From: Mycobacterium gallinarum | GTDB lineage: Bacteria; Actinomycetota; Actinomycetes; Mycobacteriales; Mycobacteriaceae | NCBI RefSeq assembly: GCF_010726765.1 | Contig: NZ_AP022601.1 | Span: 1,612,001 to 1,676,000 of the forward strand | Direction: 5' to 3' | DNA: 64,000 nucleotides | Part shown: positions 6,113-39,004 of the stretch, piece by piece | How positions within the stretch are numbered: the stretch's first letter is position 1 | Layout: the number at the start of each line of letters is the position of its first letter | The notes under the pieces: model-generated | Databases searched by the model: none | Told to the model about the DNA's origin: nothing | What the model saw: the letters and a program-made list of their open reading frames with translations, nothing else | Program-made: the position numbers and the translations under genes

Positions 6113-6997
6113 CTAGCTCTTGGCGAGGGTGAACTGGCAGATGTCGGTGTAGCCCTCACGGAAGAGGTCGGCGCAACCCGTCAGGTACTTCATGTACCGG
6201 TCGTAGACCTCTTGAGACTGAATCGCGAGCGCTTCGTCCTTGCGGGCCGACAGCTTGTCCGCCCAGATGTCCAGAGTGCGGGCATAGTGCATCCGCAGCC
6301 GATGTGCGCGTTTGAGCTCAAAGCCAGCCTCCGCGGCGTGCTGCTCGACCTGTGACGGCTTCGGCAGATCACCGCCGGGGAATATCTCGTCCATGATGAA
6401 CTTCGAGAACCGGACGATTCTCATGGTCAGCTTCAGACCCTTGTCCAGGAACTCCTTGTCCTCGGGCTTGATGATCGTGTGCAGCAGCATCACCCCGTCG
6501 TCCGGGAGCACCGCGTAGGCCTTCTTGAAGAAATCGTCGTAGCGATCGCGGCCGAAATGCTCGAAGGCGCCGATCGAGACGATGCGGTCGACGGGTTCGT
6601 CGAACTGCTCCCAGCCCTGGAGAAGCACCCGCTTGGTACGCGTGCTGGGCGAGTCGGCGAACACCTTCTCGACGTGGGCCTTCTGGTTTTGACTCAAGGT
6701 GAGGCCGATGACGTTCACGTCGTACTTCTCCAGCGCCCGGTTGAGCGTGGCGCCCCACCCGCAGCCGATGTCGAGAAGCGTCATTCCAGGCTTCAGATCC
6801 AATTTGCCGAGCGACAGATCGATCTTGGCGATCTGCGCCTCTTCCAGCGTCATGTCATCGCGCTCGAAATACGCGCAGCTGTAGGTCTGCGTCGGGTCGA
6901 GGAAGAGCCGGAAGAATTCGTCGGACAGGTCGTAGTGCGCCTGCACGTCCTCGAAATGCGGCTTCAGACCGCTCTCGTCGCTGGTCGTTTCTGGCAA
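6113..6997 (-). CDS. Mycolic acid cyclopropane synthase/methyltransferase family protein
   Basis: About 294 residues, SAM-dependent methyltransferase of the CmaA/PcaA/MmaA/UmaA family, which adds cyclopropane or methyl groups to meromycolate chains of the cell envelope. Diagnostic segments are [38 protein letters not shown], the SAM-binding [32 protein letters not shown] and [17 protein letters not shown] start at 6997 is chosen because AGAGG lies 9 bases upstream and the protein then has the usual family length. An ATG at 7102 would add 35 atypical residues. The exact paralogue cannot be assigned. Confidence 0.88.
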
Positions 6998-7385
6998 GGT
7001 ATATAGCCTCTGACGTTGGTTCTGGAAAATTTGCGAAGGCCCCGCGTCGGTGCGGTGACCTCCCCCGTCATGTGCGCAGTTTACGCACAGTACATGAGAC
7101 AAACCCTATTGGCCTCATCCGTGAATCCGCCTATCGGGGGGCGCCACTTACTGACGCCAGCGAATATTCTCGCATCGTGGTCCTTCGTCATTGACGGGGC
7201 GGGTTGCCAACTCGAGTTCAACCGCGCCTATACCCACGTCTACGGCCTTTCAAGCGTCGGCGGTGCCGGTCCGACGGTCGGGTCGCGTCGCCCCCGCTGC
7301 GCTGTCCGAATCGCCCCTCAGCAACGTGACGCGCACCGGCGACACCCAGCGCAACGTCAGGGACTCGTCACAACCCCGAGCCGCA
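6998..7385. other. Intergenic region upstream of the mycolate methyltransferase gene
   Basis: About 390 bases with no convincing gene. Frames here are short and low in protein-like character. The part nearest 6997 must hold the promoter of the methyltransferase. The only clear structure is an inverted repeat TGTGCG (7071-7076) and CGCACA (7084-7089) separated by 7 bases, a possible operator. Confidence 0.45.
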
Positions 7386-7685
7386 TCAACTGAGGTTGCG
7401 GGCGGCGCCCACGTCGTACTCCGCTACCGACGCGGCGCGGATGGCCGCCCCCTGTTCGACGCCGACACCGCTGCCACGGAACTCCTCGACCGCGGCCTGC
7501 GACTCCCAGCGTTCCAGGATGTTGATCCGCCCAGCGTCGACAAGGTCGGCCGATAACGCGAAGTCCAGACAGCCCGCGGTCGCGCGGGCTTGACGGACGA
7601 CGTCCACGCACCCCGCCAGGTAGTCGTCGCGCCGCTGAGGGTCGACGATGAGATGACCGGCGACGATGACCTCCTGCAAAACCAC
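7386..7685 (-). CDS. Antibiotic biosynthesis monooxygenase (ABM) domain protein
   Basis: 99 residues from a GTG at 7685 preceded by GGAGG five bases upstream. The sequence is a single dimeric alpha/beta-barrel ABM domain: EVIVAGHLIVDPQRRDDYLA, ATAGCLDFALSADLVDAGRI and ILERWESQAAVEEF are typical strand-helix segments. Family members are small cofactor-free monooxygenases or haem-degrading enzymes; the substrate is unknown. It is divergent from the small membrane protein gene at 7789. Confidence 0.75.
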   Translation of the reverse strand: MVLQEVIVAGHLIVDPQRRDDYLAGCVDVVRQARATAGCLDFALSADLVDAGRINILERWESQAAVEEFRGSGVGVEQGAAIRAASVAEYDVGAARNLS

Positions 7686-7788
7686 AAAGACCTCCGATGT
7701 CGCACCGCGGTGACTGCAATGGAGACTGCGGCGACCGGCGGAACTCATCGACTTCCCGGAACCGCCGTGCGGTAGTAAGCATGAAGGC

Positions 7789-8094
7789 ATGAACCTGCGA
7801 GACGTTTCAGAACTGCGCGACGCCGCACACCCCGATGCCTCACGTGTGTACGGACAGCCGCACGAAACCGCTGACGGCACGACGGTCATCCCGGTGAGCA
7901 GGGCGCGCGGCGGCGCCCTCGGGGTGTTCGTCGTCAAAGACGGCGCGGCCTCATGGGTTCCCGCCGCCGACGCCACCCGCATCGCGCTGCTGGGCATCTG
8001 TGTCGGACTCGTGTCGGTCGCATTCGCCGGCATAGCTATGGTTCGTCGCCCGCCGTGGCCCGACCTGCACGGCGATATCTCGAGGCGGTTGTAG
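7789..8094 (+). CDS. Small membrane protein with GerW/YtfJ-like sequence
   Basis: 101 residues. The N-terminal two thirds (VYGQPHETADGTTVIPVSRARGG) resemble the GerW/YtfJ family, named from spore proteins but widespread in actinobacteria that do not sporulate. A single C-terminal helix (ALLGICVGLVSVAFAGIAMV, about residues 67-86) should anchor it to the membrane. Its last 59 bases overlap the convergent ccdA-like gene, so the two mRNAs would be antisense over that stretch. Confidence 0.65.
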   Translation: MNLRDVSELRDAAHPDASRVYGQPHETADGTTVIPVSRARGGALGVFVVKDGAASWVPAADATRIALLGICVGLVSVAFAGIAMVRRPPWPDLHGDISRRL

Positions 8095-8935
8095 CCCTCG
8101 CGCGCAAGGCCACGAGCACGGCGGCGAGCGCGGCCACCAGCACCACCCAGGGCCAGGCTCCGTGTTGATGAGTCCAGCCTGCTAGCGCACCTTGTACCCG
8201 GCCGGCGGCGGCGATCACCGGATCAGCCGGGTCTCCGTTGGTGTTGAACAGACGCACCTCGTAAACGCCGTAATAGCTCACGTAAAGACCGACGACGACA
8301 AGCAGCGCGCCGCCGATTCGGTTGAGGTGAGGAATGATTCGGCGCATTCGGTCGGCGACGGCGGAACTCGCCACCGCGGCGGCTACGGCCAACGCGCCGA
8401 CCACCAATGTGAATCCGGCGGCGTAGGCGACGTAGACGAGCGCCCCGCCGACATGGGAACCACCCTTGAACGCCATCCCGGTGACCGCGAGGAAGGGGCC
8501 GATCGTGCAGGACAACGACGCGACGGCGTAGCTGACGCCGTAGCCGAACATCGAGCCCAGGCGCGCAGTCGGCGCCGAACGCGTGTGCACAGTCGGAATC
8601 AGCGCCGTGAAGTCGCGGCCGAGCAACAACCAGACGCCGAGGGCGACGAGGACCCCGCCGATGACCACCGTGACGTAGGGCAGGTAACGCTGCACTGTCG
8701 ATGCCGCGGCGATCGTCAGCAGTCCGAACGTGCCGAACACCGCAACGAAGCCGAGCGCCATGGCCGCGGTCGCCGCGACGGCACGGCCCAGCGAGGTGAG
8801 CGGGCCGCCTCGCTCGCCGTCGACGTCGCCCCGCACCACGAGTGCCAGATAGGCGGGCAGCATCGCAAAGCCGCACGGATTGAGCGCGGCGACCAACCCG
8901 GCGGCGAACGCCAGACCGATCAGATCCTGGTCCAC
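8036..8935 (-). CDS. CcdA/DsbD-like membrane thiol-redox transporter
   Basis: 299 residues with several membrane helices of the cytochrome c biogenesis/DsbD transmembrane type. LVAALNPCGFAMLPAYLALV near the N-terminus has the family NPCGF cysteine, and SLSCTIGPFLAVT has the second conserved cysteine; together they shuttle reducing power across the membrane. It lies 14 bases downstream of the MPT53-like gene, the arrangement I recall for M. tuberculosis Rv2878c-Rv2877c. It probably keeps the secreted thioredoxin-like partner in its working redox state. Confidence 0.85.
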   Translation of the reverse strand: MDQDLIGLAFAAGLVAALNPCGFAMLPAYLALVVRGDVDGERGGPLTSLGRAVAATAAMALGFVAVFGTFGLLTIAAASTVQRYLPYVTVVIGGVLVALGVWLLLGRDFTALIPTVHTRSAPTARLGSMFGYGVSYAVASLSCTIGPFLAVTGMAFKGGSHVGGALVYVAYAAGFTLVVGALAVAAAVASSAVADRMRRIIPHLNRIGGALLVVVGLYVSYYGVYEVRLFNTNGDPADPVIAAAGRVQGALAGWTHQHGAWPWVVLVAALAAVLVALRARATTASRYRRAGRATAGDEP

Positions 8936-8949
8936 GCGGGGGCGACCGG

Positions 8950-9453
8950 CTAAGCGAGCGCCGCTACCCGATCGGACAATTCCTTCAGGGGCATCGCCGA
9001 GGTCGGATTGTTGACGAACGACGACGAGCCGTCCGCGCGGTAGAAGACGTAGGCGGGCTGCCAGGGCACGTTGTAACGCGCCCAGATTGAGCCGTCGGCG
9101 TCATTGAGATTCGTGAAGTCGAGGTTGTACTTCGATACGAATCCCTGCATGTCCGAAACGTCCGAGCGGGCTGCGACACCGACGAACGTGACGTCGGGGT
9201 TGGCTGCAGCGACCTGGCTGACGTTCGGCGCCTCGGCGTTGCAGAACGGGCACCACGGCGTCCAGAACCACAACACCGCAGGCTTGCCGACCAGGCTCGC
9301 ACCCGAGAACGGTGCGCCGGACAGGGTCGTACCGGTGAATTGGAGACGGTCATCGGCGAGGGCGGCGGGCGGGCTGACGAGTCCGTACGCCAGCAGGGCG
9401 GCCAGCCCTGCGATCATCACCGACCGACCAATCCGCAAGAACCGAAGCCTCAT
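8950..9453 (-). CDS. mpt53: Secreted thioredoxin-like protein, MPT53/DsbE type
   Basis: 167 residues with a Sec signal peptide (basic start, hydrophobic VMIAGLAALLAYGLV, then a likely cut near PPAALA). The mature part is a thioredoxin fold with the active site WTPWCPFC (about residues 68-75) and the cis-proline segment VPWQPAYVF. In mycobacteria MPT53 is an exported disulfide oxidoreductase. The ATG at 9453 has GGAGGA about 7 bases upstream. It is followed by its CcdA-like partner. Confidence 0.86.
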   Translation of the reverse strand: MRLRFLRIGRSVMIAGLAALLAYGLVSPPAALADDRLQFTGTTLSGAPFSGASLVGKPAVLWFWTPWCPFCNAEAPNVSQVAAANPDVTFVGVAARSDVSDMQGFVSKYNLDFTNLNDADGSIWARYNVPWQPAYVFYRADGSSSFVNNPTSAMPLKELSDRVAALA

Positions 9454-26814: not shown

Positions 26815-27921
26815 TCAGCCGAGCGCGTAGACGCGCTCGGCATTACCCCGGGCCATCAGGTCCACGACGCGCACAGCGTCAGACTCGCTCCATTCGCCGG
26901 TGTCGACGAAACCCTGGAACACATCGCGGATTCCATTGCGCCACAACCGTGCTCCGAGATAGTGCAACTCGGCCGGGCCGAAGCCGTCCGATGAATAGAG
27001 AATCTTGCGGAACGGTGCCATTTCCACCAGTCTGCCGATGAACGCCGGCGACCGTGCGCCCAGATAGTTGATGGCCAGCCCGCCGTCGAGGTAGACGTTG
27101 TTGAACGCCTGCGCCAGATAGCCGGCCTCGCGTTCGTAGGGGTAGCAGTGCAACAGCATGATCGGCACGTCTTCGCTGTGCCGCAGGAAATCCAAAAGGT
27201 ACAACGGGTTGGTGGTGTGCAGGTCGCAGTCCCGATCGCCGAAGCCGACATGGAATTGGATCGGCTTTCCCAGTCGCAGCCCCTGATACAAGCCGAACCG
27301 CAACAGAACGCGGTCGGTCAGGCGCGCCTGCCCGCTGTCGCGCCACCGCTGGGCCGCCTTGGCGACCTCGGCGGCGGGAGGCTCCGAGAGGTCACCGGCG
27401 AACCCGCCGCGGTACGCCAGGATCGACTTTGTCGCCACCGCCGTGGCTGCTCGCTCGTGCAGGATCTCGGCGAACGCCGTCGCATAATCGCCGCCCGCGT
27501 GGACTGCCCGTTCGGCCACCGACTCCAGCCGGACGATCTCGTGCACCCGGCCCACCGACAAATCGGTCAGCTCTGCCAGATCGGCGACCCCGGCGGAGAA
27601 GCCGGTATCGACCAGCCAGTCGGACACCCTGGCCGATGACAGGAACAGTTGCGCGAGATCGGCTTCGGAGCGTTCGCGACGCGCCCGCCAGTACGAATCG
27701 GCGTCGGCGTGGCGCGGCAGCCCCAACAGTGGTGCGCAGTGGGCGCGAACCGCGAACCCGAGTTGGGTGTCGAAGGCGGAATCGAAGTCGGCCAGCGGTT
27801 CGGTGTTTGCCTCGTTGAGACTGTCCTCGAACCGGCGGCGGTCAACCGGCGCCAACCGGCAGCCATGCACGTGGTGGTCGATCAGCGACACGCCGTCGAT
27901 GTGTTCGGCCAGTCGGGTCAC
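26815..27921 (-). CDS. Amidohydrolase of the FluG N-terminal type
   Basis: 368 residues, TIM-barrel amidohydrolase (amidohydro-rel family). Candidate metal ligands are DHHVHG (about residues 15-20), HVGFGD, LLHCYPYERE and the aspartate in YSSDGFG. It begins 6 bases after the GlnA3-like gene on the same strand. The same two domains are fused in fungal FluG (amidohydrolase plus glutamine synthetase-like). From memory the pair corresponds to M. tuberculosis Rv1879 and Rv1878. It may release the amine from the gamma-glutamyl product, or act on a related amide. Confidence 0.82.
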   Translation of the reverse strand: MTRLAEHIDGVSLIDHHVHGCRLAPVDRRRFEDSLNEANTEPLADFDSAFDTQLGFAVRAHCAPLLGLPRHADADSYWRARRERSEADLAQLFLSSARVSDWLVDTGFSAGVADLAELTDLSVGRVHEIVRLESVAERAVHAGGDYATAFAEILHERAATAVATKSILAYRGGFAGDLSEPPAAEVAKAAQRWRDSGQARLTDRVLLRFGLYQGLRLGKPIQFHVGFGDRDCDLHTTNPLYLLDFLRHSEDVPIMLLHCYPYEREAGYLAQAFNNVYLDGGLAINYLGARSPAFIGRLVEMAPFRKILYSSDGFGPAELHYLGARLWRNGIRDVFQGFVDTGEWSESDAVRVVDLMARGNAERVYALG

Positions 27922-27927
27922 ACGCGC

Positions 27928-29289
27928 TCACACACTCCAGGCCAGACGGAACTTCTCGGCCAGCTCCTCGGGCGTCAGGTCGCCGTAATTCTGCTGCTCG
28001 TAACGTCGCACCGCGACCACGGCGTCCACCGGTTCGTCACCGAGAATCCCTCGTAGCAAGGCGGATTGGTCGAGCATGTCGATCGCCTCGGCCTGGTCGC
28101 GCGCCAGTAGTCGGATTTCTCCCTTGTCGCGTTCGGCGTCGGTCAACGAGTCGGGGTCGACGGTGACCTCGGGCGGCGCCGTGAGCTCTCGCTCGATGCC
28201 GTCGAACGCGAGACCGAGCATCGCGGCGGTCGCCAGGTAAGGATTGGCCGACGGGTCGATGATCTTGACCTCCACGTTCGCCCCCTGTGGGTTGCTCGGG
28301 CCGCCGATGAGGAAACGGACTGCTGCTTCGCGGTTCTCGGTTCCCCAGCAGACGTGCGCACCCGACCAGTGGCCGGGCTGCATACGCAATCCGGACAGCA
28401 CTGAGCCGCACAGGATGCCCTGCGCTTCGGGCAGACCGGCAAGCAACCCGGCGACCGCGCTCTCGCCCTCCGGTGTCATCCCGGCAGCACCTGAACCGCC
28501 GGAGAACAGCGGAACATCGTCTCGCTTCATCGAGAAGTGTTGATGGGAACCAGATCCGACGCTGCCCGCGAAGGGCACCGGCGAGAGACTGACCCGCAGC
28601 CCGTACTTCCGGGCGACCCGGCCGATGATGATGCGCGTCATCACCAGCGCGTCGGCCGCGGCCACCGGCGGCTGTGGGGACAAGGAGATCTCGAACTGAT
28701 TCCTGCCGTACTCGGGGTGGAACTGTTCGATCGTGATGCCGGAGTTCGTCGCGGCGTTGGTGACGTCGCGGACGAAACCTTCGAACTCGAGCACACCGGC
28801 AAGCCCGTATTGCGCCCACAGGTGCGACGGAAGCTCGCTGCCGTCCGGTCCGACGAGGACGAACTCCATCTCGTGTCCGACCACCGTGTCGATGCCGGCC
28901 TCGGTGATACGGTCGGAAACCCTGCTCAGGGTGCCGCGGCTGCAATAGGGATCCGGTGAACCGTCCTGGTTGAAGAAAGCGCCCGGCGCCCAACACAACC
29001 CGTCTCCGAGGATGCGCAACGCGCCGAGGTCGATCCGGATGCGCTGGTCCCCCACCACCCCGATGGCGTCGCCGAACACGATTCCGGTCTGGTCGATGGC
29101 GAAAACGTGAAAGACAGGGCTCGCGCCGAGTCCGGGATCGGCGAACGCACCCATCCGGCGCAGCGGAACGGTCTTGGCGTGGGTGAGGCCGGCCGGGTTC
29201 ACGACGGTGCCGATCAACGTGGCGACACCGTCGGCCTCGAGTTGGGCGATGGCGGCTGCGGCGAGAGGTTTTGCGGCGCGCGACGTCAT
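27928..29289 (-). CDS. glnA3: Glutamine synthetase-like ligase GlnA3 (gamma-glutamyl-polyamine type)
   Basis: 453 residues from ATG at 29289. Glutamine synthetase marks are HEMEFVLVGPDG, EQFHPEYGRNQFEIS, GSGSHQHFSM and DPSANPYLATAAML. The usual R-x-E-x-R near the end is changed (ANVEVKIID), as in type-3 paralogues that ligate glutamate to amines rather than ammonia. GlnA3 in Streptomyces is a gamma-glutamyl-polyamine synthetase and the mycobacterial enzyme acts on spermine, by what I recall. The FluG-like amidohydrolase gene follows directly. Confidence 0.85.
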   Translation of the reverse strand: MTSRAAKPLAAAAIAQLEADGVATLIGTVVNPAGLTHAKTVPLRRMGAFADPGLGASPVFHVFAIDQTGIVFGDAIGVVGDQRIRIDLGALRILGDGLCWAPGAFFNQDGSPDPYCSRGTLSRVSDRITEAGIDTVVGHEMEFVLVGPDGSELPSHLWAQYGLAGVLEFEGFVRDVTNAATNSGITIEQFHPEYGRNQFEISLSPQPPVAAADALVMTRIIIGRVARKYGLRVSLSPVPFAGSVGSGSHQHFSMKRDDVPLFSGGSGAAGMTPEGESAVAGLLAGLPEAQGILCGSVLSGLRMQPGHWSGAHVCWGTENREAAVRFLIGGPSNPQGANVEVKIIDPSANPYLATAAMLGLAFDGIERELTAPPEVTVDPDSLTDAERDKGEIRLLARDQAEAIDMLDQSALLRGILGDEPVDAVVAVRRYEQQNYGDLTPEELAEKFRLAWSV

Positions 29290-29317
29290 TACGCCATTGT
29301 GCGGGGTGCCGCGTCGG

Positions 29318-29800
29318 CTACAGCGTGATCTTGCAGGTTTGGCCGATGTCCAGCGTGCGCAGCATCCTGCCCATGCCGAGCCACATCGCACACGACAGCG
29401 CGAGGTCGGTGAGCAGCTCGTCGGAGAAGTGCTCGCTCGCGCGCTCCCAGAAATCCTCGTCGTCACGCAATCCGGTGTGGTCGCTGGCGAATCGCTCGGC
29501 GAACTCGGCGGCGATCCGCTCCTGCGGGCTGTAGCCGGGCCACGTTCGCCACTCGGCGGCATGGTCGTAGAGCTCCTCGTCGACCCCGGCGGCGATGCCT
29601 TCGGAGTCGCGGGTGTTCTGGCACACCACGCATTCGTTGTCGAGCGCGATGACCATCCGGGCCAACTCGCGGACACGCATCGGGAGGCGGTTCTTGTTGT
29701 AGACCGCGTTGGTGAATCCGGCCATGGCGACGCCGATATCGGGTGACTTCACCACCCAGGCTGCGGCGTCGTCGTCGGCAAAGGGTCCAATTCGGCTCAT
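29318..29800 (-). CDS. Carboxymuconolactone decarboxylase/AhpD-like protein
   Basis: 160 residues from ATG at 29800, all-helical AhpD-like fold. The CxxC motif is in LDNECVVCQNTRDSEG (about residues 55-70), flanked by LPMRVRELARMVIAL before it. CxxC-containing members act in peroxide reduction or as thiol-dependent enzymes; others decarboxylate gamma-carboxymuconolactone. A KstR-type box lies 32-45 bases upstream of the start, suggesting induction on sterols. Confidence 0.82.
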   Translation of the reverse strand: MSRIGPFADDDAAAWVVKSPDIGVAMAGFTNAVYNKNRLPMRVRELARMVIALDNECVVCQNTRDSEGIAAGVDEELYDHAAEWRTWPGYSPQERIAAEFAERFASDHTGLRDDEDFWERASEHFSDELLTDLALSCAMWLGMGRMLRTLDIGQTCKITL

Positions 29801-29831
29801 GACGGCATGGTACGCCGGAACCGCCCCGAAT

Positions 29832-29845
29832 TGGAACACGTTCTA
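29832..29845. promoter_or_regulatory. KstR-type operator TGGAACACGTTCTA
   Basis: Fits TnnAACnnGTTnnA; on the minus strand it reads TAGAACGTGTTCCA. It sits in the 55-base gap upstream of the AhpD-like gene (29800) and just after the stop of the sugar-transferase gene, so it most likely serves the AhpD-like gene. Motif match only. Confidence 0.65.
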
Positions 29846-29855
29846 GTTTTCCGCC

Positions 29856-31340
29856 CTATTCCGAACCACGCAAGACAGCCGGCACGGTCAGCAAGAGGAT
29901 CTTGAGATCAAGCGCGAGTGACCAGTTCTCGATGTAGTAGTTGTCCCATTCCACCCGGTCTGCGATCGAGGTCTGGCCGCGCAGCCCGTGCACCTGCGCC
30001 CAGCCGGTCATGCCGGCCTTAACGCGGTGACGTTCGCCGTAGCGGTGAATCTGGATTTCGAAGAACTCGACGAACTGCGGTCGTTCTGGACGCGGACCGA
30101 CCAGGCTCATCTCTCCCTTGAGCACGTTGATCAGTTGGGGTAACTCGTCCAGCGATGTCGACCGCATGATCTTGCCGATGCCCGTCCGTCTGTCGTCGCC
30201 TTCGACGCCACCAGGAGCCGAACGCGACTTCAGTTCGAAGTCACCGTCTGAAGCTGTGGCCGGCCGCATCGAGCGGAACTTCAGGCACTGGAAGACCCGT
30301 CCGTCGCGACCGATCCGATCCTGTTTGTAGAAGATCGGTCCCGGTGAGCTCAGCCGAACCAACACGGCCAGCGTTATGAGCACTGGTGAGATCGCGAGCA
30401 GTCCCAGGGCTGCCCCGACGCGATCGATCACGTGTTTCGCGTTGAACTGCCAGCCGTGCGGGTCGGCGCTCGGCAGCGACATCAACGGCAGGCCGCCGAG
30501 ATGATCGACCGTCGCCCGCTCGGCGACCGCGTCGAACATGCGGGGCACCACCCACACCCGCGCTTTGTGTCGGTGCGCGATCCGAACAACGCGGGTAAGG
30601 GATTCGTCGCTCACCCGCGAGAAGGCGATGAGGACGGCCGCTGCCCCGGTGCTCTCTATCGCTGCGCCGATCTTTTCCGGGGGTCCGATGATCGGAACAT
30701 CCGTATCTGCCGCCGCTGTCGCAGCGGAATTCTCGGCATCGAGGAGGCCGACCGGTAGCAGGCCGTACTCGGGGCGGGCGCGCAACCGTTCGACGATTCG
30801 GTTGGCGACTTCCCCGCTCCCGATGATGAGGGTGGGTGCCATGAAGCGGCGATTGAGCCTCATTCGCTTCTGAATCCGCGAATGGATGAAGCGCGGTATC
30901 GGCATCAGGACGGCGGCACAAAACCACGTCTTGGAAACCACGGGTCCGGAGAGCTGCGGCGCTTGGGCGAGAGTCGTGATGCCGAGCACCAGGATGGACG
31001 CCAGTGCGACGTTGGTCTCGATCGGTCCGACCTCGTCGATGAAGTTTCGGTTCAGTTTGTGTCGATACAGGGATTGCACGGCGAACAGCACCACGACAAG
31101 GGGTACGAACAGGGCGACCACCCACGAGGACGGGGGAAGGCTCTCCGATACCGATGACCACCACAAACCTATGGCGACGGCCGCTGAAGCAGCCAGAATG
31201 TCGATGGACACCGCGATGACCGTGCCGATCCAGCCGACACGAACCAGCCCGGCGAGTGCGTTGTTCGTCTCGCGCACACCTGGGTGCTGCCGATCGGTGG
31301 GTTCGTCGGGCGCCTCCAGGATTGTTGGCGATTTCGTCAT
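29856..31340 (-). CDS. Polyprenyl-phosphate sugar phosphotransferase (exopolysaccharide initiation, WcaJ/PssA type)
   Basis: 494 residues from ATG at 31340. Four or so N-terminal membrane helices (about residues 35-170) precede a nucleotide-binding-like region (LIIGSGEVANRIVERL) and the C-terminal bacterial sugar transferase domain: ISPVLITLAVLVRL, FYKQDRIGRDG, CLKFRSM, STSLDELPQLINVLKGEM, SLVGPRPERP and KAGMTGWAQVHGLRGQT. It transfers a sugar-1-phosphate to a polyprenyl phosphate at the membrane, the first step of a polysaccharide. The start overlaps the stop of the GAF gene (ATGA, 31337-31340), a two-gene operon. No other glycosyltransferases adjoin it. Confidence 0.88.
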   Translation of the reverse strand: MTKSPTILEAPDEPTDRQHPGVRETNNALAGLVRVGWIGTVIAVSIDILAASAAVAIGLWWSSVSESLPPSSWVVALFVPLVVVLFAVQSLYRHKLNRNFIDEVGPIETNVALASILVLGITTLAQAPQLSGPVVSKTWFCAAVLMPIPRFIHSRIQKRMRLNRRFMAPTLIIGSGEVANRIVERLRARPEYGLLPVGLLDAENSAATAAADTDVPIIGPPEKIGAAIESTGAAAVLIAFSRVSDESLTRVVRIAHRHKARVWVVPRMFDAVAERATVDHLGGLPLMSLPSADPHGWQFNAKHVIDRVGAALGLLAISPVLITLAVLVRLSSPGPIFYKQDRIGRDGRVFQCLKFRSMRPATASDGDFELKSRSAPGGVEGDDRRTGIGKIMRSTSLDELPQLINVLKGEMSLVGPRPERPQFVEFFEIQIHRYGERHRVKAGMTGWAQVHGLRGQTSIADRVEWDNYYIENWSLALDLKILLLTVPAVLRGSE

Positions 31341-32056
31341 ATCGGTCGGCGAAATATCTTCGCGCTCGCAAGGTCGGCCATGTCCTGCAGGACGAGGATC
31401 TGACCGCCCGACCAGTTCAGCGGCCGGGTATCCCAACTGAAGAGCGAACCGACCGCGTCGTCGTCGTCGCTGAAGATCGGAACACCCGCGTACGCCCCGA
31501 CCTCACCGCTGAGCACGAGCGGATGGTTTGCCAGCAGCGGGTGCGCGGTGGCGTCCTCGACAATGAACGGGATGCCGCTTACCACGGTGAACGTGCCGAT
31601 TGACAGTTTGGCCGGGCGCACCCTTTCGCCGTCACCGTGAACGACGTTGCGCCCGATGATCAGTTCCCTGCTGTCGTCGAGCAGCGACACCGCGGCGAAC
31701 GGCGTTGCAAGCGCTTCTGCCGTCAACAGCGCGACGGTGTCGAGGGCGCCGCTCTCAGGCGTGTCCAGCAGGCCCGTGCTGTGTAGCGCGGCCAGGCGCG
31801 CCGGGTCACTCAGCGAAAGCTGAATTACGGGTTCCAGCGCGTCGGGGTTGGTCGAAAGTCGTTGAATCAACAACTGGGAAGCAGCGTCGTCCACCCCGAC
31901 GCCGACAACAGCCGCTATCAGTCCCTCTTTGAGTTCTCGCTTTTCAGCATCGGACAGCCCCGTCGCAGCCTGCCACCCGTTTGACGGCGTCGCGTCCCCC
32001 ACAGGTGTAAGCGTAAGTCGCCGGGACTTTTCTGGGGCGAAGAGCGGAATCTCCAA
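31337..32056 (-). CDS. GAF-domain sensory protein
   Basis: 239 residues. An N-terminal region of about 100 residues is followed by a GAF domain: LAALHSTGLLDTPESGALDTVALLTAEALATPFAAVSLLD..., then SIGTFTVVSGIPFIVEDA, VGAYAGVPIFSDDDDAVGSLF and LQDMADLASAKI. No output domain is attached, so it probably signals by protein contact. Its end overlaps the sugar-transferase start, and its 5' end faces the STAS gene across a 154-base divergent promoter region. Confidence 0.8.
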   Translation of the reverse strand: MEIPLFAPEKSRRLTLTPVGDATPSNGWQAATGLSDAEKRELKEGLIAAVVGVGVDDAASQLLIQRLSTNPDALEPVIQLSLSDPARLAALHSTGLLDTPESGALDTVALLTAEALATPFAAVSLLDDSRELIIGRNVVHGDGERVRPAKLSIGTFTVVSGIPFIVEDATAHPLLANHPLVLSGEVGAYAGVPIFSDDDDAVGSLFSWDTRPLNWSGGQILVLQDMADLASAKIFRRPI

Positions 32057-32210
32057 TCCGCGATGCCATCGATGTGACGCGCACCGGTGTGTTTTCGCGC
32101 TTTGATCCCAATACCGAGCGCACGTGGCAAGCTACACGAGGGCTTTGTCTAGCCGTTGGTTCTGGTCCCAGGGGTGGTGCCACGACGGTTACGACGAAGA
32201 AGGAGGAAAG

Positions 32211-32543
32211 ATGAGCGACTTTTCCACTCGGACAACGGAGTCGGGTGTCGTCGTGGTGCAGCCGACCGGGAGGCTGAACATGGTGGCTGCCCCCGCGCTA
32301 CGAAAACAGCTCAATGACATCGTTGATGGTGGCGTGAGTCGAATCGTCGTCGATCTCAGCGCCACGGAATTCATTGATTCGTCCGGTTTGGGCGCGTTGA
32401 TCGCGGCCCTGAAGATTGCGCGGAATGCGGGTGGCGACTTGCGCATTGCGGCTCCCACACAGCAGGTTTGCACCGTGCTGGAGTTGAGCAACCTTGACCG
32501 GGTCTTGCGTACCTATGCGTCGGCGGACAGCGCTTTCGAATGA
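32211..32543 (+). CDS. STAS-domain anti-sigma factor antagonist (RsbV-like)
   Basis: 110 residues; ATG at 32211 has a strong AGGAGG six bases upstream. STAS domain with VVVVQPTGRLNMVAAPAL and the phosphorylation-site loop FIDSSGLGAL (Ser about residue 57). In partner switching the unphosphorylated antagonist binds the kinase and frees its target. The stop overlaps the start of the kinase-like gene (ATGA, 32540-32543). The sensor and phosphatases follow on the same strand. Confidence 0.88.
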   Translation: MSDFSTRTTESGVVVVQPTGRLNMVAAPALRKQLNDIVDGGVSRIVVDLSATEFIDSSGLGALIAALKIARNAGGDLRIAAPTQQVCTVLELSNLDRVLRTYASADSAFE

Positions 32544-32941
32544 GTGAGCACGCCATGGAGGCCCTGACCGGTCCCGACACGCTGGCGGAGATCCAGCAGA
32601 CACTCGAACTGGCGTGGGCGGAAGAAGAAGTTTCCGAGCACACCAAGATGTGCATAGAACTCGCGGTCAGTGAGATCGGTACGAACATCATCGCGTACTC
32701 AGGTGACGGGCGGCCAGTGCGATTGCGCATGGTGGTTGACGTGCGCCCGGAAAGCGTGGCCGTCACCTTCACCGACGACGGCCATCCCGCGGAGGTCGAC
32801 CTGACCCGGATAACCATGGCCGACGAGGCCTCCGAAAGCGGCCGCGGACTGGCACTCGCGCATCGCGTACTCGACGAGCTGTCCTACTGGCGCGATCAGA
32901 AGGGCAATCACTGGACGCTGACTCGGCGTCGATCCGGATGA
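32540..32941 (+). CDS. RsbW-like serine kinase/anti-sigma factor (HATPase_c)
   Basis: 133 residues, a single GHKL ATPase domain. The N-box is in CIELAVSEIGTNIIAYSG (with catalytic Glu and Asn), the G1 box in FTDDGHPAEVDL and the G2-like segment is ESGRGLALAHRVLDEL. It should bind the STAS protein, phosphorylate it and release it, and in the bound/unbound cycle hold a sigma factor or other target. No sigma factor gene is nearby. It is translationally coupled to the STAS gene. Confidence 0.87.
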   Translation: MSEHAMEALTGPDTLAEIQQTLELAWAEEEVSEHTKMCIELAVSEIGTNIIAYSGDGRPVRLRMVVDVRPESVAVTFTDDGHPAEVDLTRITMADEASESGRGLALAHRVLDELSYWRDQKGNHWTLTRRRSG

Positions 32942-32957
32942 GGATGCGCGACTTCCT

Positions 32958-34985
32958 GTGACGGGCACGGCTGAATTGTCTGACCAGGTCACGTCGAGCC
33001 CACGCTTATCGCACGCTGGTCATGGGTCGGACACACCGCCTTTCCGCATTGCCAGGTGGCAGATTCCCGACGCCGTATTCATCATCGTCATGCTGCTCGC
33101 TTTGGCCGTGGTGACAGCGATCACCCTGAAGCTCCAACCGTCGGGCCTGTTGACGCCGCCATGGTCGCCGGCCTCGGGCATCGCTCTGGGCCTGGGCATC
33201 TGTTTTCGGCGACGGTACACCTGGATGCTTGCGCTGGCAGTTGCGGCCGTATCGTTGCCGATCTTGGTGTGGTTGGGACGGCCTGCACCCCTCGCTGCCG
33301 CGTTGACCGCGGCCCTAGCCGTCGAGATGATTGTCGGCACACTACTCCTTCGCGGTCGCCAGGACCGCCGACCGCAACTGTTCACTCCGAGCGATCTGGC
33401 CAGGTTTCTGGCGATCGCACTGGTGTCGGCGACGCTCTACGGCGTACTGGCCTCCGCCGCCTTTTATCTGCTCGGGTATCCGGCCGGGGCCGTGGAAACG
33501 CTCCAGACCGCTGTGCTCAAGCATGTTGCGGGAATGGCGCTTCTCACTCCGCTGCTCATGGCGCCGACTTACCGGATACAACGGGCGGGCTACGCCGAAA
33601 CGGTGGGCCACGTCATCTGGACGCTGGGAACCGCCACCGGTGTATTCATATTCGACGACACGCTACTGCCGTTGGCGTTTCTGACCTTTCCGTCCTTGGT
33701 GGCCGCGGCGCTTCGACTGTCGACCCTGCAGCTGTCCCTCGTCCTCATCGGAGTTGCGAGTATTGCATCGCACGGCAGCGTGAACGGTTTGGGCCCATTC
33801 GCATTCGATCAGCTAGGTGGGCCGACGGGAGTTGCCTTACTACAGGCCTATCAGTTATCGATAGTCGCGGTCTTGCTCACGCTGTCCCTTCTGGTGGGAT
33901 CCGAGCGGGAGATGTCATCGCGGCTACACGAGAGCGAGGAGTTGTTCCGCAAGAGCTTCAACTCGTCGGTCGCCGGCAAGCTCATGGGCATCCGGACGGC
34001 CGATCAATGGATTGTCGAGCGTGCCAACCCCTCCGCACGGGCTCTGCTGCCCGGACTGCAAGGTGGCATCAGGAGCCTTGACACCTTGATGGGTCGGGAT
34101 GCCGTTGGCAAACTCTCGCAAGCCGCCGATTCCCTTGTCGGCGACAACGCCCGTATCGTCGTGCAGCTCGACGACGGGCGCAGCCTCAACGTGAGTATCG
34201 CCGTGATCGGCGAGACGACTGAAGGGACCCAGTTCGTCGTGCACTTCCACGACGTCACTGAATCGGAGCGGCTACGTCAGCTGGAGCAGGAGGAACTGAA
34301 CCGGGCTGCCGAAGTTCAACGTGCACTGCTGCCTGGCAAACTCCCCGAGACGCCGGGCTGGACGTTCGGCACGTCCACCAGCCCGGCCAAACAGATCGGT
34401 GGCGATTTCTACGACGTGCGCGTGCATCAACCTTCCATCGTGCTCAGCCTCGGCGATGTCATGGGTAAGGGCATGGACGCGGGAATGCTCGCCGCCGCGA
34501 CTCGCACCGCGCTCCGGTCCCACGATCCCGGTATGACTCCGTCGGCGGTCGTCACGCATGCGGCCGGCATTCTCGAAGGCGATCTGCGTCGCGTCAGTGC
34601 ATTCGTCACGCTTGCCTACGTACAGGTGGACATCGACTCCGGCGACTTCCGGTTCGCAGACGCGGGTCACGGCTTGCATTATGTCCTCCGGACCAGATCT
34701 GGCCGGGTTGAAAGGCTGTCGTCCGACGACATGCCCGTTGGATTGGGCGACCAATGGCGCGAACTCTCCGGCCGCCTCGCCCCGGGGGACATGATCCTGC
34801 TCGTCAGTGACGGAGTGCTCGAGCTGTGGGGCGGTTCGCTTGACGGACTCGAGAACGCAATCGCGCAGTGCGCCAACGGGACTGGGACGGGCCCACAGGA
34901 GGCCGTCGACTACTTGTGTGCGAACGCCGGCGAATTACTGGATGGCGACGACGTCACCGCGGTGGCCTTACGCCGTGCAGGGTGA
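32958..34985 (+). CDS. MASE1-PAS-PP2C (SpoIIE/RsbU-type) phosphatase, first of a pair
   Basis: 675 residues, GTG start 16 bases after the kinase gene. Residues about 30-310 form eight or more membrane helices of MASE1 type (VSLPILVWLGRPAPLAAAL), then a PAS-like segment (SEELFRKSFNSSVAGKLMG) and the SpoIIE phosphatase: QRALLPGKLP, GGDFYD, GDVMGKGMDAG, ADAGHGLHY and LVSDGVLELWGG, with all metal-binding Asp positions kept. It should dephosphorylate the STAS protein when its membrane sensor is stimulated. The last 352 codons match those of the next gene. Confidence 0.88.
   Translation: MTGTAELSDQVTSSPRLSHAGHGSDTPPFRIARWQIPDAVFIIVMLLALAVVTAITLKLQPSGLLTPPWSPASGIALGLGICFRRRYTWMLALAVAAVSLPILVWLGRPAPLAAALTAALAVEMIVGTLLLRGRQDRRPQLFTPSDLARFLAIALVSATLYGVLASAAFYLLGYPAGAVETLQTAVLKHVAGMALLTPLLMAPTYRIQRAGYAETVGHVIWTLGTATGVFIFDDTLLPLAFLTFPSLVAAALRLSTLQLSLVLIGVASIASHGSVNGLGPFAFDQLGGPTGVALLQAYQLSIVAVLLTLSLLVGSEREMSSRLHESEELFRKSFNSSVAGKLMGIRTADQWIVERANPSARALLPGLQGGIRSLDTLMGRDAVGKLSQAADSLVGDNARIVVQLDDGRSLNVSIAVIGETTEGTQFVVHFHDVTESERLRQLEQEELNRAAEVQRALLPGKLPETPGWTFGTSTSPAKQIGGDFYDVRVHQPSIVLSLGDVMGKGMDAGMLAAATRTALRSHDPGMTPSAVVTHAAGILEGDLRRVSAFVTLAYVQVDIDSGDFRFADAGHGLHYVLRTRSGRVERLSSDDMPVGLGDQWRELSGRLAPGDMILLVSDGVLELWGGSLDGLENAIAQCANGTGTGPQEAVDYLCANAGELLDGDDVTAVALRRAG
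33930..34985 (+). repeat. Duplicated phosphatase half, copy 1 (copy 2 at 35863-36918)
   Basis: The PAS-SpoIIE parts of the two neighbouring phosphatase genes align from a shared GAGAGCGAGGAG to their stop codons with the same total length (1056 bases, constant offset of 1933). One codon gained in the middle of copy 2 is balanced by one lost at its end. Many stretches are identical at DNA level, for example around 34440-34500 versus 36373-36433. The N-terminal sensor halves are unrelated, so this is a tandem duplication with sensor exchange. Confidence 0.85.
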
Positions 34986-34995
34986 GCCGCGCGCG

Positions 34996-36918
34996 GTGAG
35001 CGCTCCCGCCTCCGCTGATGCCGACGCCGCGAACTCGCGTCGGCGGCGCATGTACTCGCGGCTGACCGTACAGGGGTGGTTGATGGTCGTGTTGTGCGTG
35101 ATGGGTGTGGTCGTCCTCTGCGGTTCGGCGTCCATCGCGGTGCTGCAATACCGCACCGACGCTGCAATTCGCCAACTGGTGGACATAACATCGCCCGCAC
35201 GTGCCACCGCCTTTCAGATGCAAGCGGGACTGCGTGACCAGGAGACCGGTGTGCGCGGCTACGTCATCACCGGCGACCGCCGATTCCTCGAGCCGTACGT
35301 CGAGGGTCAGCAGGCCGAACAGGCCGCCGCCGCTCGGGTGCGCGAACGCCTGACGGGTAACGACGACCTGCTTGCCGATCTGGACGCGATCGAAACAGCG
35401 GCCGAGCAATGGCGCACCAGCTACGCCGAACCGTTGATCGCACGCGTGTCACCTGGTGAGCCCTACCCGCTCAGCACCACGGAGGCCGACCGCGGCAAGG
35501 CCCAGTTCGACAATCTGCGCGCCCTGTTCGACAGACAAAATGAAAACCTCGTTTCGGCGAGAAACGACGCCCGCGCCCAGTTGCAGCAGTTTGAGTCATG
35601 GCTGAACCAGGTGCTGATCATTGTGTTGGTCGCGCTGGTGGGCACCGCGCTGGCGCTGACCCTCTTGGTGCGCCGCGCAGTCACCCGGCCTGTGGCCGGC
35701 GTCGCGGCGGCATGCCGGCGGATCGCTAAGGGTGATTTCGCCGCGACGATCCCGGTCGAGGGTCCCAGCGATATTCGGGGGATCGCACAGGATGTAAACG
35801 ACATGCGGCGGCGCATCGTCGACGAGCTCCAGACCTCGCAGGCAGCACGAGCCGAGCTCTACGAGAGCGAGGAGTTGTTCCGCAAGAGCTTCAACTCCTC
35901 GGTGGCCGGGAAACTGCTGGTATTCCGTGCGTCCACCCAGTGGATTGTCGAGCGCGCCAACCCCTCAGCACGCGACCTGCTGCCCGGGCTGCGGGAGGGC
36001 ATCACGAACCTTGACCTGCTTATGGGTTCGGACGGCATGGCCGAGCTTTCGACCGCCGCCGATTCTCTCGATGGTGACGACAACGCGCGGCTGACGATGC
36101 GGCTGACCGACGGGCGCAGTCTGCAGGTGAGTATCGCCGTCATCGGCGAGAAGCCCGAAGGGACCGAGTTCGTCCTGCACTTCCACGACGTCACCGAATC
36201 GGAGCGGTTACGTCAGCTCGAGCTGGCGGAGATGAACCGGGCCGTCGAGGTGCAACGTGCACTGGTACCGGGCGCCTTGCCCGCAACGCCAGGTTGGACC
36301 TTCGGCACGTTCACCAGCCCGGCCCGACAAGTCGGCGGGGACTTCTACGACGTGCGCGTGCGTCAACCCTCCATCGTGCTGAGCCTCGGCGACGTCATGG
36401 GTAAGGGCATGGACGCGGGAATGCTCGCCGCGGCGACTCGCACGGCGCTGCGCTCCAACGATCCCGCAGCGACCCCATCGACTGTGGTCAACGGTGCAGC
36501 AGGCATCCTCGAGGGCGATCTGCGCCGGATCAGCGCGTTCGTCACGCTGTCCTATGTCCGGGTCGACATGGACTCTGGCGACTTCCTGTTCGCCGACGCG
36601 GGTCATGGGTTGCACTTCGTCATCCGCACCCGGTCCGGCCGCATCGAGCGCCTGGCGTCCAACGACATGCCCATGGGATTGGACGACCACTGGCAGGAAC
36701 TCTCCGACCGCCTGGCGCCGGGGGACATGATCCTGCTCGTCAGCGACGGTGTGCTCGACCTATGGGGCGGTTCGATCGAGGGACTCGAGGACGCCATCTC
36801 GCAGTGCGCCGATGGCAATGGGACGGGCCCGCAGGCGGTCGTGGACTACCTGTGTGCGAATGCGGACGAGATGCTCGACGGTGACGACGTCACGGCGGTA
36901 GCCCTGCGCCGCGGCTGA
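34996..36918 (+). CDS. CHASE3-HAMP-PAS-PP2C (SpoIIE/RsbU-type) phosphatase, second of a pair
   Basis: 640 residues from GTG at 34996 (GTG at 34975 also possible). One helix (GWLMVVLCVMGVVVLCGSAS), an outer CHASE3 domain with the hallmark QAGLRDQETGVRGYVITGD, a second helix (LIIVLVALVGTALALTLLV), then HAMP (RRAVTRPVAGVAAACRRIAKGD), PAS-like SEELFRKSFNSSVAG and SpoIIE phosphatase with GGDFYD, GDVMGKG and SDGVLDLWGG intact. It likely senses an outside signal and acts on the same STAS protein as its neighbour. It ends 20 bases from a convergent MFS gene. Confidence 0.88.
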   Translation: MSAPASADADAANSRRRRMYSRLTVQGWLMVVLCVMGVVVLCGSASIAVLQYRTDAAIRQLVDITSPARATAFQMQAGLRDQETGVRGYVITGDRRFLEPYVEGQQAEQAAAARVRERLTGNDDLLADLDAIETAAEQWRTSYAEPLIARVSPGEPYPLSTTEADRGKAQFDNLRALFDRQNENLVSARNDARAQLQQFESWLNQVLIIVLVALVGTALALTLLVRRAVTRPVAGVAAACRRIAKGDFAATIPVEGPSDIRGIAQDVNDMRRRIVDELQTSQAARAELYESEELFRKSFNSSVAGKLLVFRASTQWIVERANPSARDLLPGLREGITNLDLLMGSDGMAELSTAADSLDGDDNARLTMRLTDGRSLQVSIAVIGEKPEGTEFVLHFHDVTESERLRQLELAEMNRAVEVQRALVPGALPATPGWTFGTFTSPARQVGGDFYDVRVRQPSIVLSLGDVMGKGMDAGMLAAATRTALRSNDPAATPSTVVNGAAGILEGDLRRISAFVTLSYVRVDMDSGDFLFADAGHGLHFVIRTRSGRIERLASNDMPMGLDDHWQELSDRLAPGDMILLVSDGVLDLWGGSIEGLEDAISQCADGNGTGPQAVVDYLCANADEMLDGDDVTAVALRRG

Positions 36919-36937: not shown

Positions 36938-39004
36938 CTAGCTTGCGCGGCTGCGGGCTGCGTCCAGTTCGCCGCGGTCCTCAGTCCAGTTCCGCTGCAC
37001 GAGCATACGATGCGCGATTCGTTCGAGCGCCGCCTCGACCTGATCACCGTCGGGCCGTCCTTCGAACGAGGATGACGTGGCCAATTTGTCGACGATGCGT
37101 CCTACGATGAGCCCGGATATCGCGTCGACCTGCTTCATTCCGGCCTGTGTCAGCCACAGCCTGCCGCCGCCTCCCAGCACCAGTCCGTCGCGGATCAGCC
37201 CGTCGAAGGTGGGCTCGATGACCTCGTGGGGCACCCGCAGACGTTCGGCGATGTCGGTCAGCGTGGCCGTACCGAACACCTGGTTCTGCCGATAGATCTG
37301 GAGCAGTGCCCACATCTGGGTGACGTCGAGATTGCACCCGGGGAGTTGGGCGAGACTGCGTAGCCGAATCTCGGGCGAGTCGCGGAAGATCCGCCCGATG
37401 GCCACTTCGAGGATCTTCTCGGGCGACTCGGTGCTCGGCATCCCGAAACCCTCACCGAGGTCGCTCGCCGATACGGTTTCGATTTCGCGCAGTCGCACCT
37501 CTTTGAGGAAGAGCGAAACCACGAAGCCGACAACTGCGACGGGTACCCCACAGAGGAACACAGTGCCGAGCGAGTCCGCATATGCGTCGACGATCGGTGC
37601 GGCCATCTCCGGCGACAGCGCGTGCAGTGCCTGCGGGGAATCCGCAGCCCTGGCGGGCGCCCCGCTGGCCACCAGCGCAGCCGGGATCTTGCCGGCAAGG
37701 AAGTTGGCGAACAGCGAGCCGAAGATCGCTGCGCCGAAAGAGCTTCCGATCGTCCGGAAGAACGTGACCCCGGACGTTGCCACACCGAGGTCGGCAAAGC
37801 TGGAGGTGTTCTGGACGACGAGAATCAGAACCTGCATACACAGACCGATACCTGCGCCGAGGATGAACAGCGACACCGACTGCTGCCACAGCGGTGTGGC
37901 AGCCCCCATCTGTGACAGCAGCGCGAACCCCACCGCCATGGTGGCGGTGCCCACGACGGGGAACACCTTGTACCGGCCGGTGCGGCCGATGATCTGCCCG
38001 CTTCCGATGGACATGATCAGCATCCCCGCCACCATCGGCAGGGTGCGCATACCCGACTCGGTCGCCGAGACGCCGTTGACGAATTGCATGAACGTGGGCA
38101 GGAATGTCAGTGCACCCAGCATCGCGAATCCGACGATGAAGCCGAGGATGCAGCACACCGTGAATACCGGGCTGGCGAACAGACGGATCGGCAGAATCGG
38201 CTCTGCGACATGGGATTCCACCCAGACGAAGATTGCCAGTGCGAGTGCGGAACCGACGAAGAGGCTGATGATCATCGGAGACGACCAGGCGTAGGTGCTG
38301 CCGCCCCAGCTGGTGGCCAGCGTCAGGCCGGACGCGGCCACACCGATGAACAGAATGCCCGCGTAGTCGATGACCGCCCTGCCGGCCTTGGCCAACGACG
38401 GGATGGCCAGGGTTCCGACCACGATCACGAGAAGCGCGATCGGCACATTGATCCAGAACGCCCATCGCCAGCTGAGGTGATCGGTGAAGAACCCGCCGAG
38501 TAGCGGGCCGATGACGGTGGTGACTCCGAACACGGCACCGAGCGCGCCCTGATAGCGACCTCGTTCGCGCAACGGGATGACTTCGCCGATAACAGCCATC
38601 GCCGTGACCATCATCGCGCCACCACCGATGCCCTGCAGTGTGCGCGATGCGACCAGCATCGTCATCGAGCCCGCGAGCCCACAGAGGACGGATCCGGCGA
38701 GGAAGAACAGGACCGCCACCTGGAAGACGGCCTTGCGGCCGAACAGATCGCCGAGCTTTCCGACGATCGCGGTGGCGATCGTGGAGGCCAATAGGTAACT
38801 GGTCACCACCCAGGACTGGTGGCCCGCTCCCCCGAGGTCAGCGACGACGGTCGGCAGCGCGGTGGCCACGATGGTCTGATCCAGGGCCGCCATCAACATG
38901 CCGAGCAGCACCGCAACAAAGATGATGTTGCGACGCTGAGGGCTGATCAGCGCGCTGGGAGATTCACAATCTGCGGCAGCCGCGTCCGTTCGCGTGCTCG
39001 TCAT
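36938..39004 (-). CDS. MFS drug transporter, DHA2/14-helix type with C-terminal winged-helix-like domain (Rv1877-like)
   Basis: 688 residues. Fourteen-helix DHA2 transporter: [19 protein letters not shown] in helix 1, [13 protein letters not shown] as motif [14 protein letters not shown] as motif B and [19 protein letters not shown] as motif C. After residue about 520 comes a cytoplasmic extension of about 160 residues with a helix-turn-helix-like stretch ([20 protein letters not shown]), unusual for MFS proteins. From memory it equals M. tuberculosis Rv1877, next to bfrA as here. Substrate unknown, probably drugs or lipids. Confidence 0.85.

Follow-up and report, generated by a model that had tools for sequence, protein, structure and literature searches.

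What does a partner switch control when no sigma factor lies beside it and the genes facing it encode enzymes of polysaccharide synthesis? The question is raised by a locus in a 64,000-nucleotide stretch (C1:1612001-1676000, hereafter the window) of the 6.3 Mb genome of Mycobacterium gallinarum, in which two operons diverge over a region of 154 bases (32057-32210). On the minus strand lie a membrane polyprenyl-phosphate sugar-1-phosphate transferase, the initiating enzyme of exopolysaccharide (EPS) synthesis (ST, 29856-31340, 494 residues, ATG start at 31340), and a GAF protein (31337-32056, 239 residues) that overlaps it by ATGA. On the plus strand lie a STAS antagonist (32211-32543, 110 residues), an RsbW-like serine kinase (KIN, 32540-32941, 133 residues) overlapping STAS in the same way, and two SpoIIE phosphatases, phosphatase 1 (32958-34985, 675 residues) and phosphatase 2 (about 34972-36918, start codon provisional). 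The genome is mycobacterial by its relatives and, at this locus, close to Mycolicibacterium tusciae (STAS 99%, KIN 95%). The answer that we favour, with a probability of about 0.55, is that these genes would form a partner-switching module dedicated to a surface polysaccharide, and that the switch probably acts on a protein rather than via a sigma factor.

The plus-strand genes supply all the components of a partner switch, namely a SpoIIE-type PP2C phosphatase, a STAS protein with a candidate phospho-serine and a GHKL kinase with its characteristic boxes. STAS (PF01740, expect value (E) 4e-19) matches the structures of anti-sigma factor antagonists including SpoIIAA (E about 1e-11) and has a DSSGLG loop; its predicted phospho-acceptor Ser57, presumably the phosphorylated residue by analogy with SpoIIAA, is kept in 63/63 related loci. 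KIN (PF13581, E 3e-16) has the N, G1 and G2 boxes, with E45, N49, D79 and G101-R102-G103 present in the same 63/63 loci and G81 in 60/63, and its family profile matches RsbW (6m36, E 5e-5). Phosphatase 1 joins a membrane MASE1 sensor (PF05231), and phosphatase 2 a CHASE3-HAMP sensor (PF05227, PF00672), to a SpoIIE PP2C domain (PF07228); the former matches the phosphatase structure of Rv1364c (3ke6, E 3e-11), with which its GGDFYD, GDVMGKG and DDVT stretches align. Because the two phosphatases are 79% identical across their last 354 residues while their sensor ends are unlike, they look like a tandem duplicate. On the opposite strand, ST combines PF02397 (E 3e-64) with PF13727 and scores 407.6 bits with the EPS polyprenyl glycosylphosphotransferase model TIGR03025 (cut-off 295.55); it stays below the cut-offs of the WcaJ model TIGR03023 (377.6 vs 410.75 bits) and of the WbaP model, and resembles the solved WbaP structures (E 2e-35) in an alignment that runs through its DELPQ stretch. 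An earlier note on this DNA had described the divergent operons, the 154-base gap and both ATGA overlaps, which sequence and domain scan confirm, and had judged the STAS serine loop, the kinase boxes and the phosphatase metal residues intact, as the alignments bear out; the check that it proposed named seven genes, whereas its description covers six.

The same note had seen no adjacent sigma factor, and none of the 27 sigma-70 region-2 matches of the genome indeed falls in the window, the nearest lying at C1:1826729, about 150 kb away. Four sigma-B/F/G genes exceed the model cut-off elsewhere in the genome, which also has a separate RsbW-like/sigma-B/F/G gene pair (C1:5802874-5804024, with the RsbW-like match just before the sigma gene). 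KIN is not a close copy of the genome's other RsbW-like proteins, since it has no other relative there at E 1e-8. When nine sigma proteins were used as queries against 145 KIN loci, repeats included, only one contig showed a sigma gene close to KIN (it is listed twice, as L221 and L123, and so makes up two of the 145 loci). Moreover, in 8 of 11 loci, that of the window among them, no SigF-type promoter (GTTT-N14-17-GGGTAT, at most one mismatch) was found in the 330 bases preceding STAS; the start pattern of this search missed L040, L041 and L223.

Which partners, then, does the STAS-KIN family keep? Of 148 genomes of the genus, 18 contain relatives of KIN at E 1e-8, and in 12 of these 18 they are 50-58% identical to the window's KIN. 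The run GH26 - GAF/SpoIIE phosphatase - cellulose-synthase-like GT2 - STAS - KIN is present in 12/12 genomes of this GT2 type, and the GT2 itself, at E 1e-60, is found in 12 of the 148 genomes, which are exactly those with a GT2-type KIN. A scan that covered 446 stretches of named genomes, with 153 relatives, extends this association to other actinobacteria: among the best 80 loci, which were those used, GT2 adjoins STAS-KIN in 62 (one GT2 being incomplete, L108), with a GH26 gene near GT2 in 41 of these 62, while a SpoIIE phosphatase and a glycosyl- or sugar transferase of some kind are each found in 69. By record titles these loci represent 18 genera, from Gordonia and Rhodococcus to Clavibacter, Microbacterium, Nesterenkonia and Nocardioides, counting a Kitasatospora record (L115) that clusters tightly with Williamsia in the tree and is perhaps mislabelled. 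In mycobacteria, 51 of 65 KIN loci have a glycosyl- or sugar transferase alongside or fused, in four arrangements: the BcsA-like GT2 operon (33), a fusion of glycosyltransferase and KIN (9), GAF-ST (7) and nearness to an operon for a 701-residue protein, a 509-residue protein, a GT2 and a PMT-like protein (2). KIN lies within about 2 kb of the last operon in L220 and L077, and homologues of that operon adjoin GAF in L053. The 65 loci are those with fetched surroundings, so that some KIN copies of a wider search of 396 genomes are left out, and they overlap with the 80 loci above. For comparison, these transferases were also looked for in four regions of the window's genome that surround five other RsbW-like genes, a small control that returned no match.

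The GT2 of the related operon resembles BcsA (E 2e-65), and no PilZ domain was found in two GT2 proteins scanned, nor in the precomputed domains of the 120 matches listed of 5240. It has an insert of 150-159 residues where BcsA is continuous, in 75/75 distinct aligned sequences, with a conservation of 0.64 vs 0.83 and 0.81 in the flanking parts; the insert (for example residues 253-405 of the protein at L072:8945-10912) is a candidate docking site for the switch. As a separate observation, the window's own genome has no GT2 of this operon at E 1e-60 and encodes, near C1:2.49 Mb, a GAF-SpoIIE phosphatase (L254:5439-6707, minus strand) that shares 59% of 411 aligned residues with the phosphatase encoded in the GT2 operon and could act on the window's STAS.

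A physical tie between kinase and enzyme is found within the mycobacteria, where the KIN family occurs in 56/396 genomes of the genus. Nine mycobacterial genomes encode a glycosyltransferase of a second kind (PF00535) that has the KIN domain as its C-terminal part (loci L210, L211, L213, L214, L215, L216, L217, L075 and L080). These genomes are drafts of 2.6-4.5 Mb, several of them with further KIN copies, and in L214 the fusion is followed by STAS-KIN-KIN. PF00535 and PF13581 stand together in 80 of the best 120 of 7096 database matches to one fusion, on many contigs, so we consider the fusion natural; hence it is plausible for the family that the kinase domain directly touches a glycosyltransferase. 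A fold model of the fusion was poor overall (mean predicted local distance difference test score (pLDDT) 57, with better values at the kinase-like end and where the glycosyltransferase domain begins) and is not used as an argument. Taken by its gene neighbourhoods and fusions, the presence of the STAS-KIN family beside or within enzymes of sugar polymers suggests that the switch controls enzymes rather than genes.

The arrangement of the window itself recurs in 11 loci, ten of them in nine of the 396 genomes and one in M. tusciae, whose STAS and KIN form a single clade among 63 loci (ultrafast bootstrap (UFBoot) 100). GAF is present in 10/11 of these loci and the GAF-ST pair in 8/11. Flanks of up to 4.5 kb per side are common to six loci including the window's, while the other five share no flank with any at nucleotide E 1e-20, which makes six chromosomal sites in total. 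At four of the six sites GAF-ST, STAS, KIN and phosphatase 1 are found together, so that the module moves or persists as a unit; the second phosphatase occurs only at the window's site. In searches for mobile elements, KIN gave no plasmid match, and neither KIN nor STAS matched a phage family. Since other species have the same arrangement, and it is also met elsewhere in the chromosome, it is more than chance. The free separation of the two operons in related genomes, which the earlier note had named as a result that would refute its reading, is not what is seen: GAF-ST is kept at four of six sites without shared flanks. One genome (G341) carries two related modules, of which L226, at the window's site, has STAS-KIN-phosphatase 2 without GAF-ST, while L225, elsewhere, has ST-GAF with STAS-KIN-phosphatase 1. 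GAF rather than ST seems the closer associate of the switch, because two loci (L041, L249) retain GAF without ST, and for the same reason GAF would be the likelier direct partner in the window's locus.

The minus-strand pair has its own distribution. To count the pairing we drew on searches of the 148 genomes, keeping 60 ST rows (43 genomes; identity from about 49% upwards) and the top 63 GAF rows (42 genomes); this selection omits GAF matches weaker than 2.7e-19 as well as ST matches of less than about 460 bits. A GAF homologue lies directly upstream, on the same strand, of 40 of the 60 STs (31 genomes); 2 STs have GAF nearby in another arrangement and 18 have none inside 6 kb, just as 21 of the 63 GAF rows have no such ST inside 6 kb. 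At E 1e-20, GAF is found in 24 of 201 genomes of the family, belonging to 5 of 31 genera, and ST adjoins GAF in 21 of 23 further loci (18/19 outside the genus, 3/4 inside). Linkage to the switch is rare at GAF loci: STAS and KIN were found at 3 of 30 (1.5 kb flanks, the window's own included) and in 2 of 20 fetched GAF regions, most of 18 kb (L040 and L041). By these distributions, GAF-ST is evidently an older pair whose history differs from that of the STAS-KIN half. The genome of the window carries a second such pair (L039, C1:5540000-5558000; GAF at 8651-9364, ST at 6947-8527), surrounded by Wzz-, Wzy-, flippase-, GT2- and UppS-like genes and by a gene for a 678-residue protein without Pfam match. 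With regard to the earlier note, the tie of the switch to polysaccharide instead of a neighbouring sigma factor is supported by the family context, and the part given to GAF by its presence in 10/11 window-type loci. The idea of a self-contained switch for the sugar transferase finds no support in that form, for the genus also has GAF-ST pairs to which no switch is linked, the commonest partner of the family is a different enzyme, the cellulose-synthase-like GT2, and three window-type loci (L041, L249 and L226) have no ST.

The GAF protein (PF01590, E 6e-8) has a helical N-terminal part and one GAF domain. Its AlphaFold2 model has a mean pLDDT of 84 and finds as top Foldseek match the diguanylate cyclase DcsBis (4zmu), and this comparison gave no clear hint of a ligand. 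A cysteine in a SICK-type stretch is present in 15/15 aligned GAF proteins from other loci and absent in 6/8 of the window type, around the SIGTFTV stretch of the protein at 31340-32056; its loss perhaps reflects altered ligand or redox sensing. A ribbon-helix-helix DNA-binding end, guessed by eye for a second GAF type, was dropped, its Pfam matches being sub-threshold.

Several observations weigh against a dedicated polysaccharide switch acting on a protein. Eight of the nine fusion loci have no STAS beside the fusion, and in 14 of the 65 mycobacterial loci, some of which lie on short contigs, such a transferase is lacking from the surroundings. Among the window-type loci, L041 and L249 keep GAF beside the switch without ST, and L226 has neither. 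In L221 a SigF-like gene lies about 0.9 kb from tandem KINs and STAS, a response-regulator-like gene standing in between, and in three further loci the distance to a sigma gene is about 3-8 kb. The pairwise identities of ST, GAF, STAS and KIN correlate well (r 0.90-0.98; 28 pairs, 8 loci), a co-variation that common descent would produce as well, and because the loci are related their counts are not independent. Joined-query searches, which scored only the candidates with most shared words, found no fusion of the BcsA-like GT2 with STAS or KIN among the 120 matches listed of 5240, and no GAF-ST fusion among 37 matches.

How would such a switch operate? With no signal, KIN would phosphorylate STAS at Ser57 and would then be free to bind and restrain its polysaccharide target, or else phosphorylated STAS would fail to activate that target. 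Signals perceived by the MASE1 or the CHASE3-HAMP phosphatase would lead to dephosphorylation of STAS, which would capture KIN and so release the target. Here the target would most likely be the GAF protein or the GAF-ST pair, and the switch would set the frequency with which ST begins sugar chains on the lipid carrier; in other branches of the family, the target would be the cellulose-synthase-like GT2 without PilZ or the glycosyltransferase fused to the KIN domain. A bolder proposal, which we advance tentatively and at rather less than even odds, is that this RsbW-like family left the sigma factors altogether and became a direct, phosphorylation-controlled subunit of glycosyltransferases: fused to them in some mycobacteria, docking on the insert of about 150 residues of GT2 in many actinobacteria, where it would replace cyclic di-GMP (c-di-GMP), and reaching the EPS-initiating transferase via a GAF adaptor in the lineage of the window.

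The rival that deserves most attention is that the module serves a sigma factor in trans, with KIN behaving like RsbW2 of M. smegmatis, a kinase in control of an antagonist, or STAS competing for an anti-SigF protein, with GAF-ST as a neighbour or a member of the regulon. M. smegmatis offers a precedent, since according to excerpts of PMC7693655 it has three RsbW homologues in one SigF network, of which the RsbW2 kinase does not bind SigF; the SigF-like gene found close to tandem KINs and STAS on one contig, and the four sigma-B/F/G genes of the window's genome, are also in keeping with this rival. Yet KIN stands apart from the other RsbW-like proteins of its genome, the SigF-type promoter was missing upstream of STAS in the 8 of 11 loci mentioned before, and members of the KIN family are fused to glycosyltransferases, so that we regard this explanation as somewhat doubtful.

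A related possibility is that the switch works on transcription, of the GAF-ST operon or other genes, with the GAF protein or some further regulator as intermediary, and not on the activity of an enzyme. The two operons do share their 154-base region, and four relatives at the same site (L085, L238, L232 and L226) conserve stretches of it around 32086-32134, a conservation not visible in L225, L243 and L249; the helical N-terminal part of the GAF protein has no assigned function, and a response-regulator-like gene, recognized by eye, adjoins KIN in several relatives. However, six N-terminal pieces of GAF proteins gave Pfam matches far under the cut-offs (the best, to the TraM activator family with E 0.019, for one piece), and the GT2-KIN fusion would be left unexplained, which makes this possibility unlikely. 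That the two operons are neighbours without functional link could be argued from the occurrence of GAF-ST without a linked switch, from the other partners that the STAS-KIN family usually has, and from L226, where the switch sits at the window's own site without GAF-ST; the combination of GAF-ST with STAS-KIN-phosphatase 1 at four sites with unshared flanks and the presence of GAF in 10/11 loci render it very unlikely. The dedicated polysaccharide switch remains our preferred reading.

How does this module compare with known systems? It has the SpoIIE phosphatase, the STAS protein with DSSGLG loop and the kinase N, G1 and G2 boxes of the RsbU/RsbV/RsbW switch of Bacillus SigB and of SpoIIE/SpoIIAA/SpoIIAB, but the window has polysaccharide enzymes in place of the sigma factor. 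The mycobacterial SigF switch (RsbW1-3, RsfA and RsfB; excerpts of PMC7693655) belongs to the same genus and has the same types of components; it differs in that KIN has no own-genome relative at E 1e-8, a separate RsbW-like/sigma pair exists, and a SigF-type promoter was not found in 8/11 loci. Of the two marks of the operon of the SigF anti-sigma factor (UsfX/RsbW1), the adjacent sigma gene is lacking in the window and the SigF-type promoter was not found upstream of its STAS.

Sinorhizobium meliloti makes its mixed-linkage beta-glucan with a cellulose-synthase-like enzyme. In this organism, BgrU/BgrW/BgrV control the beta-glucan via the diguanylate cyclase BgrR and c-di-GMP (Baena 2019, as reported in excerpts of PMC7647112). 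The likeness lies in a partner switch over a beta-glucan; in contrast, Pfam finds no GGDEF diguanylate cyclase among the nine proteins scanned, and the related GT2 shows no PilZ. In the SiaABCD system of Pseudomonas, a PP2C phosphatase, a kinase and an antagonist control biofilm, with the cyclase SiaD as proposed output (excerpts of PMC7647112); the types of components are again alike, but neither phosphatase of the window attains the cut-off of the SiaA model (phosphatase 2 matches it weakly via its HAMP part) and no GGDEF protein is among the nine scanned. SypA/SypE of Vibrio fischeri and HmpU/V/W of Nostoc tie a STAS antagonist to a polysaccharide locus, the targets of SypA and HmpV being not known according to excerpts of PMC8256260, which also mention an Anabaena glycosyltransferase with an N-terminal STAS domain; the Syp and Hmp systems concern other loci and organisms and are likened to ours by description, not by sequence. 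Although the GT2 of the related operon is close to BcsA, it departs from it in its insert and in having no PilZ found. A search of open-licence full texts by title and abstract returned no account of this gene set in mycobacteria or of an actinobacterial GT2-STAS-KIN run, an account elsewhere being possible. What is already known is partner switching onto biofilm or polysaccharide in proteobacteria and, at the locus of the hormogonium polysaccharide, in one cyanobacterium; what is new is the actinobacterial family, the glycosyltransferase fusion and the GAF-ST branch.

Some features around the locus complete its description. The ATG start of STAS at 32211 is preceded by AAGGAGG, a good ribosome site. 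At the other end, a gene of the same strand (29318-29839) begins 16 bases past ST, so that the GAF-ST operon may extend further; the stretch 26815-29839 on this strand holds, by eye, CMD-like, glutamine-synthetase-like and amidohydrolase-like genes that are possibly co-transcribed. Past phosphatase 2, at 36938-39004, lies an MFS exporter with a long C-terminal extension of winged-helix look by eye. Elsewhere in the family, STAS-KIN copies of L214, L219 and L076, all in draft genomes, adjoin ribosomal-protein genes, by eye an operon of S10 type.

Partner switches have mostly been read as controls of sigma factors, and where a target has been named in the exceptions that bear on biofilm or polysaccharide, which excludes SypA and HmpV (excerpts of PMC8256260), it is an enzyme of c-di-GMP metabolism (excerpts of PMC7647112). 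The family described here carries, in some of its members, a kinase domain that is physically part of a glycosyltransferase, so that the question of a direct target becomes testable with one purified protein. It points to a possible gating of a cellulose-like synthase free of c-di-GMP in actinobacteria, and may offer an entry to the exopolysaccharides and biofilms of mycobacteria.

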